Shown here: positions 8,689-11,449 of the stretch, in pieces
Layout of the letters: the number at the start of each line of letters is the position of its first letter
Numbering within the stretch: position 1 is the first letter of the stretch
Assembly (NCBI GenBank): GCA_016218705.1
Contig: JACRDC010000101.1
Span: 1-43,364 of the forward strand
Direction: 5' to 3'
Length of the DNA: 43,364 nt
Origin: Desulfarculus sp.
GTDB taxonomy: Bacteria > Desulfobacterota > Desulfarculia > Desulfarculales > Desulfarculaceae
Made by a program: the position numbers and the translations under genes
The notes under the pieces: model-generated
Database searches by the model: none
The model's input: only the letters and a program-made list of their open reading frames with translations
What the model was told of the DNA's origin: nothing

Positions 8689-9483
8689 ATGCTGGATGCC
8701 AACGCCGCCCTGATCCGCCTGTTGACCTTCGGGGGTGGGCTGGTTTTCTTCCTGGTCATGGAGATATCGGCCCCCTACCGGCTGGCCACGGTCTCCAAGC
8801 TCCGGCGCTGGGCGGTGAACCTGGGGCTCACGGCCCTCAACACGCTGTTGCTGGCGGCGCTGTTTGGCACCGCCAAGCTGGCCCTGGCCCAGCATGTCAC
8901 CCAAAACAAGTTGGGCCTGCTAAACGTCCACCCGCTGCCCTATGGCCTCAAGCTGCTCATCGCCGTGGCCTTCCTGGACTTCATGCTCTACGTCTGGCAC
9001 CTCTTGAACCACGAGGTGCCGCTTTTGTGGCGCTTCCACCGCGTGCACCACAGCGACTTGAACATGGACGTCTCCACGGCCACCCGCTTCCACATCGGCG
9101 AGCTTTTCATCTCGGCCCTGATAACCCTGGGCCTGATCTACCTCATCGGCGCCGACCCCTTGAGCGTTATCGTCTTCGAGGCCAGCCTGGGGCTCTGCGC
9201 CCAGTTCCAGCACAGTAGCCTCAAGGCGCCGGCCTGGCTGGAGGGCCTGTGGTGGATCCTTTTCGTGCCTCCATCCATGCACCGCATCCACCATTCGGTG
9301 AAGATCAAGGAACGCAACAGCAACTACGGCACCATCTTTTCGCTGTGGGACCGCGCCCTGGGCACCCTGCTGACCCAAGTGGACCAGGCCGGCATCAGGA
9401 TCGGCGTGGGCGGCCACTTCGACGCCGGCAAGCTGGGCCTGGGGCGGCTGTTGGTCATGCCCTTCACTCGCTACGTGCGCTGA
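8689..9483 (+). CDS. Sterol desaturase / fatty acid hydroxylase family membrane protein
   Basis: 264 residues. Hydrophobic segments near residues 10-30, 45-65, 85-105 and 145-160 fit an integral membrane enzyme. The histidine boxes of the di-iron family are present: HLLNH (104-108), HRVHH (117-121), a lone His in FQHSS, and HRIHH (198-202). Members hydroxylate or desaturate lipids with O2 and a reductant. In a presumably anaerobic host the role is open: oxygen-dependent lipid editing during oxic exposure, or another alkyl-oxygen reaction. The downstream rhodanese-ferritin gene is 48 bases away on the same strand. Confidence 0.87.
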   Translation: MLDANAALIRLLTFGGGLVFFLVMEISAPYRLATVSKLRRWAVNLGLTALNTLLLAALFGTAKLALAQHVTQNKLGLLNVHPLPYGLKLLIAVAFLDFMLYVWHLLNHEVPLLWRFHRVHHSDLNMDVSTATRFHIGELFISALITLGLIYLIGADPLSVIVFEASLGLCAQFQHSSLKAPAWLEGLWWILFVPPSMHRIHHSVKIKERNSNYGTIFSLWDRALGTLLTQVDQAGIRIGVGGHFDAGKLGLGRLLVMPFTRYVR

Positions 9484-9531
9484 GACGCAACCAGCGCCAG
9501 TTGTCCACAAGCTAATGAGGAGAACGCCTTC

Positions 9532-10374
9532 ATGATGCTCAAGGCCCTGTTCAGCGCCTCCCGCGACCTGAGCCCCGACCAGGTCCGCAAATTCATGGAG
9601 GCCCGCCGGCCCGATGAATACACCCTCTTGGACGTGCGCCAGCCCGCCGAGTACAAGCGCGGCCACATCCCCGGGGCCAGGCTCATCCCCCTGCCCGACC
9701 TTAGCGAGCGCCTCACGGAGCTGGACCCGAACAAGCCCACCATCGTCTATTGAGCCATGGGCGGGCGCAGCCGGGCGGCTGCGGAAATGCTCAAGCACCG
9801 GGGCTTTGAGGAGGTCTACTCCCTGGCCGGGGGCATCATGGCCTGGGACGGGCTCACGGCGCCCGGCACCGCCACCCAGGGCCTGGGGCTGGTCAGCGGC
9901 AAGGAGGACAAGGCCCGGCTGTTGGTCATCGCCCTGGGCCTGGAGGCCGGCCTGGGCCAGTTCTACCGCCAGGCCGGTGAGCGCTCCGGGAGCCAGCGAG
10001 CCCGCGATCTATGCCAGCGCCTGGCCATGGTGGAGCAGCGCCATTGCGACCAGGTCTACGGCCTGTACCTGTGGGAGAGGCCCGACGGCCCCGGCCAGGA
10101 GGAGCTTGTGGCCCAGTCCCACGACCTGGTGATGGAGGGCGGTGAAAAGGTGGAGCAGGCCTTGGAGAGGCTCTTGCCCCAGGGCTTCGGCGAGCGGGCC
10201 CTGTTGGAGGCGGCCATGGGCATCGAGGCCCAGGCCCTGGACCTGTACCTGCGCATGAGCCATAAGCTGGCCCAGGACCAGGCCCGCCAGGCCCTGCACG
10301 ACCTGGCCCAGGAGGAAAAGGCCCACCTCAAGGCCCTGGGGGCGCTCATGGAGCAGGTCAGCCAGGAGGGCTAG
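9532..10374 (+). CDS. Selenocysteine-containing rhodanese fused to a ferritin-like domain
   Basis: Read as 280 residues from ATG 9532 (GAGGAG upstream), with TGA 9751-9753 read as selenocysteine 74. Residues 1-110 are a rhodanese domain; the TGA sits exactly where the catalytic Cys belongs, in IVY-U-AMGGRS, matching the family loop C-x2-G-x-R-S. The frame continues perfectly after it (MLKHRGFEEVYSLAGGIMAW). Residues about 125-275 form a rubrerythrin/ferritin-like four-helix domain with candidate di-iron ligands Glu138, Glu168/His171, Glu232 and Glu262/His265. The likely role is persulfide or selenium/sulfur transfer coupled to redox or peroxide defence in the cytoplasm. Cys versions of such fusions occur in anaerobes. 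Naive annotation would split or truncate this gene. Confidence 0.85.
9766..9783 (+). promoter_or_regulatory. Bacterial SECIS-like hairpin after in-frame TGA
   Basis: Perfect 7-bp stem CGCAGCC/GGCTGCG with a GGGC loop, starting 12 bases after the TGA at 9751-9753. Bacterial SECIS elements sit directly downstream of the Sec codon, inside the coding region, with G at the start of a small apical loop recognised by SelB. Position and shape fit. Confidence 0.75.
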
Positions 10375-10429: not shown

Positions 10430-11449
10430 TCACCGGACCATGCGCAGCTTGGGGCACACTCGGCAGCCCGGCGGCGGGGAGCCCCGGCCCAGGCTGTCGC
10501 GGAAGGCCCGGTAGCCGCGCCCGCGCCAGATATCCTCCAGCGATTCCTGGTTGACGTCCCCGAAGCGTTCCTGCCGCCAGGGCCGCATGCCGCCCTCCTG
10601 CCAGGCCAGGGGCCGGGACGTGGATAGGTTGTGGAAGACGCAAGGCATGACCTGCCCCGCCGCGCTGACCACCATGGCCTTGTCCACGTTCTCCGTGCAG
10701 GGTCCCGGCCTCCCCCCCGGCGGGTGGGCCAATTGGTGGTGCCAGGCCAGGCCGGCCTGGGCCGCCTCCTGGGCCGCCGCGTCCAGCATGGCTTCCACCC
10801 TCTGGAACTCGGCCTGGTCCTGGGGCCAGAGGGCCTCGGCGGCCAGTTCGGGGCTGGTGACCAGGTCCAGGGTGCTCACCACCACCGCCGTCACCCCCCG
10901 GTCCTTGAGCAGCCCCGGCAGGCGCGCTACGTCGTCCAGGCGGGAGCGCAGGGCCAGGTAGGCCACGTGGACGGTTGGAAGCTCGCTGCCGGCCCGGGCC
11001 TTGGCCTGGGCTAGGTGCTCCATGGCCCCCAGTACCTGGGTCAGGCTGGTCCCCCGGCGAATCTGGTCATTGCGCTGGTCCACGCCAGCCAGGGACAAGC
11101 CCACCACCTCCAGGCCTTCGGCCACCATGCGCCGGGCCGTCTCGGCGTCCAGCAAGGTGGCGTTGGTGGTGGTCCCCACCCGGCAGCCCTGGCCCCGGGC
11201 CAGGCGGAGCATGCTCCAGAAGTCGGGGTTGAGCAGGGGCTCGCCCCAGCCCTGCAGGTGGACCAGGCGGGCGCGCCTCAGGGAAGGCAGCAAGCGGCGG
11301 AAGGTGTCCAAGTCCATCAGCCGGCCCTGCCAGTCTGGGGCCAGGGTGGCGTGGGGGCAGTAGAGGCAGCGGGCGTTGCAGCGGGAGCTGACCTCCACCT
11401 GCACCCAGTCCCAGGGCCGCCCCCAGCCGCGCGGAAGCCATGCAAGCAT
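10430..11449 (-). CDS. Radical SAM protein with C-terminal SPASM-like cluster region
   Basis: 339 residues. The radical SAM motif is Cys24-x3-Cys28-x2-Cys31 (SSRCNARCLYC), followed by HLQGWGEPLLNPDF, the GGE-like SAM-binding region. The C-terminus has further Cys (PGPCTEN, VMPCVFHN, PPPGCRVCP) arranged like a SPASM auxiliary iron-sulfur domain. Such enzymes act on peptides or small molecules by 5'-deoxyadenosyl radical chemistry. No precursor peptide gene is visible next to it, so the substrate is unknown. It stands alone, downstream of the YeiH-type transporter on the same strand but separated from it by a terminator. Confidence 0.87.
   Translation of the reverse strand: MLAWLPRGWGRPWDWVQVEVSSRCNARCLYCPHATLAPDWQGRLMDLDTFRRLLPSLRRARLVHLQGWGEPLLNPDFWSMLRLARGQGCRVGTTTNATLLDAETARRMVAEGLEVVGLSLAGVDQRNDQIRRGTSLTQVLGAMEHLAQAKARAGSELPTVHVAYLALRSRLDDVARLPGLLKDRGVTAVVVSTLDLVTSPELAAEALWPQDQAEFQRVEAMLDAAAQEAAQAGLAWHHQLAHPPGGRPGPCTENVDKAMVVSAAGQVMPCVFHNLSTSRPLAWQEGGMRPWRQERFGDVNQESLEDIWRGRGYRAFRDSLGRGSPPPGCRVCPKLRMVR

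Follow-up and report, generated by a model that had tools for sequence, protein, structure and literature searches.

A candidate selenoprotein in Desulfarculus joining a rhodanese to a rubrerythrin-type di-iron domain

Does the TGA at positions 9751-9753 of the window (the whole stretch of DNA analysed, 43,364 nt) end a rhodanese gene, or does it encode selenocysteine (Sec)? On the forward strand, the gene at 9532-10374 starts with ATG, is preceded by a likely ribosome-binding site read directly from the sequence (AGGAGA, 9518-9523) and, with the TGA read through, extends to a TAG stop at 10372-10374, giving a rhodanese and ferritin-like protein of 280 aa with homologues of equal length. The first-pass annotation had placed the TGA at the catalytic position of a rhodanese with the frame continuing beyond it, and this is what the 280-residue frame holds, the codon corresponding to U74 inside the motif IVYUAMGGRS. 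Residues 14-106 (9571-9849) match the Pfam Rhodanese domain PF00581 (4e-24; 85.4 bits against a cut-off of 22.2), an assignment shared by AlphaFold2 and VIA-align 2, with residue 74 at the nucleophile position in the active-site loop. Residues 123-280 (9898-10371) were assigned to a ferritin-like (rubrerythrin-type) di-iron domain from Pfam (PF02915 Rubrerythrin, residues 224-278, 5e-6), the structure model and ligand conservation. Rhodanese and Rubrerythrin were the only Pfam matches, and no rubredoxin domain was found in the 280-aa protein.

A rival reading is that the UGA is an ordinary stop, so that the locus holds either a shortened rhodanese plus a distinct ferritin-like protein or a gene in decay. 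Equally long open frames are not unusual behind a TGA in the GC-rich window, where 41 of 953 TGA triplets (4.3%) precede at least 206 open codons, and an ATG at 9757 could begin a 205-aa frame. We confirmed the 7-bp hairpin described in the first-pass annotation as starting 12 bases past the TGA (CGCAGCC-GGGC-GGCUGCG, 9766-9783, forward strand). Its GGGC loop (9773-9776) lies 19 nt past the UGA, the fold reaches -14.0 kcal/mol over 27 nt, and stem length, loop and spacing all fit the constraints published for bacterial SECIS elements (PMC13188914). Rfam gave nothing relevant at the hairpin site. A 55-nt fold of the window sequence was not significant against dinucleotide shuffles (z = -1.09), and among synonymous recodings the region ranked at percentile 6.75; for these reasons single-sequence folding was rejected as proof of a SECIS element. 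The window sequence by itself makes a weak case for Sec, and it is comparison across the family that lifts the case far above chance.

A profile derived from the fusion matched 112 of the 395 genomes of the phylum, and these matches combined with a search for relatives gave 103 distinct homologues, including a few that are fragments or have one domain only. Aligning homologues, as the first-pass annotation had proposed, showed UGA at the exact codon in 36 and UGC/UGU in 67, with no other codon at the catalytic position among the 103. That 36 homologues across many families keep the UGA with the flanking protein sequence intact, and that all the remaining ones have Cys at this codon, argues against an ordinary stop. 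A sequencing error at 9751-9753, named in the first-pass annotation as a possible undoing of its proposal, can in practice be dismissed, as UGA is also present in independent genomes. These include the closest named relative, a Desulfarculus sp. metagenome-assembled genome (89% identity). The scan of named genomes returned three loci only, and among plasmid records every match was partial and spanned less than 80% of the query. In a tree of 99 proteins, computed after masking the catalytic column, the Sec/Cys state requires 16 changes, at least 11 of them on supported branches, and the family is thus well suited to studying why some lineages retain selenocysteine and others lose it. Within one genus, for example, one genome has the Sec form together with selB (G410) and another has the Cys form with selB not found (G339), a contrast that looks like loss of Sec plus its machinery.

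The peptide encoded after the UGA is conserved, so tuning of the hairpin falls mainly to the selection among synonymous codons. At Ala codon +9, the rare synonymous choice GCU, which completes the 3´ arm of the stem, is used in 28 of 34 Sec copies versus 5 of 61 Cys copies (Fisher 2e-13), the background for GCU elsewhere within the same genes being ~9%. At the Ala codons on either side, +8 and +10, the difference between Sec and Cys copies was not significant. Within the stem, the GCU codon contributes a U that pairs with the A of a 5´-arm serine codon, AGC, and this pairing is present in 28 of 35 Sec copies versus 8 of 67 Cys copies; of the six Sec copies that use a different Ala codon at +9, five have an alternative perfect stem of the GAGCC/GGCUC kind. 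The stem accompanies Sec by ~7 to 0 in phylogenetically independent pairs (median sign-test p 0.016), and the mean folding z against synonymous recodings is -1.65 for Sec and -0.41 for Cys copies (p 7e-8, relatedness ignored). Such a synonymous stem, specific to Sec copies, is a further point against an ordinary stop, and the Sec-only codon cleanly marks a bacterial SECIS element.

The window genome (4.2 Mb, 99% complete) was also searched for selA, selB, selC and selD, the check suggested at the outset, and all four were found, with selB and selD above their cut-offs and the tRNA-Sec having the anticodon TCA. The selD gene (L018, G000:C43:50566-51486) itself carries an in-frame TGA, and therefore SelD is probably a selenoprotein in this genome too. 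We detected selB in 36 of 36 other genomes carrying Sec copies. Its presence was rejected as a discriminator between Sec and Cys, since it is also found in 63 of 64 genomes with Cys copies and in 353 of 395 genomes of the phylum. Taken with the family evidence, the internal stop is almost certainly read as selenocysteine, and we have high confidence that SelB with Sec-tRNA-Sec decodes the UGA, directed by the hairpin within the coding region, to insert the rhodanese nucleophile Sec74; an ordinary stop is highly improbable. The result adds a well-supported two-domain selenoprotein family whose members would be cut in two or shortened by standard gene callers. We also noted a single-domain rhodanese of 118 residues with UGA at the same site (L043); its genome (G090) carries two selB genes.

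What kind of protein results was examined with AlphaFold2. A first model (pLDDT 65.8) was superseded by a second, built from four sequences (the window protein and related loci; pLDDT 75.2, pTM 0.75), on which the structural conclusions rest. In the predicted fold, a four-helix bundle accompanies the rhodanese domain; the top VIA-align 2 match was 3tp9 for the rhodanese part (Z 17.1, rmsd 2.0, 96 residues) and 2fzf for the bundle (Z 18.0, rmsd 2.8, 154 residues). The first-pass annotation had described the ferritin-like domain as complete, and all six predicted di-iron ligands (E138, E168, H171, E232, E262 and H265) are indeed present and are kept in 97-99 of the 99 aligned rows. The modelled bundle and the six ligands place the domain in the ferritin-like di-iron superfamily. 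No further conserved Cys column was found among the 99 rows, and therefore the protein has no conserved resolving thiol of its own. We are confident that the product combines one rhodanese domain, in which Sec is the sole conserved nucleophile, with a di-iron domain of the rubrerythrin type.

Several known systems resemble parts of this protein. Selenoprotein rhodaneses have been catalogued in five forms (PMC13188914), all with Sec at the rhodanese nucleophile as here. The UxxG pattern of forms 2 (MBM9537886.1) and 4 (MCY3690685.1) agrees with U-A-M-G in the window protein, and with this pattern in common they may be identical to it or related; no ferritin-like or rubrerythrin partner is described for forms 1-5. 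TsoB, a rhodanese/DsbD fusion-like protein (NF045694), is likewise a rhodanese-fusion selenoprotein, but its partner and motif (UxxxxU) differ, and the window protein reaches 23 bits where the cut-off is 805. A rhodanese is also joined to a redox enzyme in persulfide dioxygenase-rhodanese fusions (5ve3-5ve5) and in NADH persulfide reductase/CoADR-RHD (3nta, 3icr), to which the rhodanese part is ~30-42% identical (Foldseek, first model; the persulfide reductase match recurs with the second model in VIA-align 2). The window protein differs from these in having Sec in its rhodanese and a rubrerythrin-type di-iron domain as the partner. Its four-helix bundle and E/ExxH/E/ExxH ligands are shared with rubrerythrin and ferritin-like di-iron proteins (2fzf, 1vjx and the encapsulated ferritin 5n5e), whereas here a Sec/Cys rhodanese is N-terminal and the rubredoxin domain with Cys-bound iron of a canonical rubrerythrin is absent. 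No fitting NCBIfam model was found for the window protein and no mention of a rhodanese-rubrerythrin fusion was found in the searchable literature, which suggests that, while selenoprotein rhodaneses are already known, the fusion of a Sec rhodanese to a ferritin-like domain is apparently undescribed there.

The genes around the homologues offer some guidance on function. A TIGR03169-like flavoprotein is encoded on the same strand at 21 of 97 loci (13 upstream, 8 downstream). TIGR03169 is named for the SelD-fused NADH-dehydrogenase-like module, and the commonest SelD fusions carry an NADH-dehydrogenase-like N-terminal domain (PMC4561486); the flavoprotein neighbours score under the TIGR03169 cut-off. 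This neighbour shows 13 changes on the tree, is as frequent beside Cys as beside Sec copies and is absent from the window locus, with none above the cut-off in the window genome. A role for it as a disulfide reductase is unsupported, as the flavoproteins have no conserved CxxC and their only fully conserved Cys lies within a GGGDC motif. Peroxide-related neighbours are few: at one locus (L153) a divergently oriented PerR homologue lies near a frame that resembles catalase by inspection and is likely to be one, and an AhpC motif is found among the neighbours at another (L100).

Sulfane-sulfur, selenium or peroxide chemistry is plausible for the fusion protein, and the neighbouring genes lend plausibility to sulfur or selenium transfer coupled to peroxide or oxygen defence. 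The mechanism we tentatively favour, at somewhat below an even chance, is reduction of peroxide or oxygen at the di-iron site with the rhodanese in rubredoxin's place. Sec74 would accept sulfane sulfur or become oxidised, would hand electrons or chalcogen to the di-iron site, where hydrogen peroxide or oxygen would be reduced, and would be reset by an external thiol or NAD(P)H-flavoprotein donor, the rhodanese Sec thus taking the role that rubredoxin has in an ordinary rubrerythrin. We favour this scheme because of the same-strand flavoprotein at 21 loci and the PerR homologue and catalase-like frame at L153. Counting against it, the flavoprotein is missing at the window locus, is without a conserved CxxC and shows no preference for Sec copies, and the peroxide neighbours are sparse. 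The full account, a natural selenoprotein with two fused domains and a Sec-to-di-iron mechanism, is on balance probable. A bolder reading is possible but doubtful: a rubrerythrin-like peroxidase, or an enzyme handling persulfides, that depends on selenium because the Sec-rhodanese takes over from rubredoxin as electron or sulfur relay to the di-iron site, with an NAD(P)H flavoprotein of the SelD-associated family supplying it in some lineages. If true, this relay would be a new electron route joining selenium, sulfane sulfur and oxygen defence. If the domains cooperate, the protein would link sulfane sulfur or selenium chemistry with di-iron peroxide reduction.

Two other functions were weighed. 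The Sec-rhodanese might be a carrier whose perselenide or persulfide feeds SelD or another acceptor, the ferritin-like domain being iron-sensing or structural. A selenium-bound rhodanese is known, according to literature cited in PMC5877670, the flavoprotein at 21 loci is related to the SelD-fused module, and one Cys homologue (L136, G333:C5) lies <3 kb from selB. Yet the flavoprotein falls short of the TIGR03169 cut-off, co-occurrence with selB is uninformative given how widespread selB is in the phylum, and retention of the di-iron ligands in nearly all copies suggests real iron chemistry, leaving a carrier unlikely. Less likely still, the rhodanese could deliver persulfide to be oxidised with oxygen by the di-iron domain, as in persulfide dioxygenase-rhodanese fusions. 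Those fusions and NADH persulfide reductase are among the closest solved rhodanese domains, but the iron domain differs from that of the dioxygenase fusions, no sulfur-oxidation genes stood out among the neighbours, and the hosts, like organisms of the phylum (Desulfobacterota) generally, are mostly anaerobes.

Finally, directly upstream in the window, a fatty-acid-hydroxylase family gene (OlsE-like; 8689-9483, forward strand; PF04116, 4e-28) likely shares a transcript with the selenoprotein gene, and such a lipid hydroxylase gene is found directly upstream at 16 of 97 loci, the window included. Its TGA stop (9481-9483) is in frame with the rhodanese start, with no stop between them (9481-9531). 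A longer fusion by readthrough of this UGA was set aside, since the rhodanese gene comes with a ribosome-binding site and an ATG of its own, and in a relative (L031) the junction is out of frame; the shared frame is probably due to chance. On the other side, the adjoining convergent gene (10433-11404, minus strand) encodes a radical SAM/SPASM protein that is nearest to tungsten-cofactor maturase models, though far under their cut-offs.
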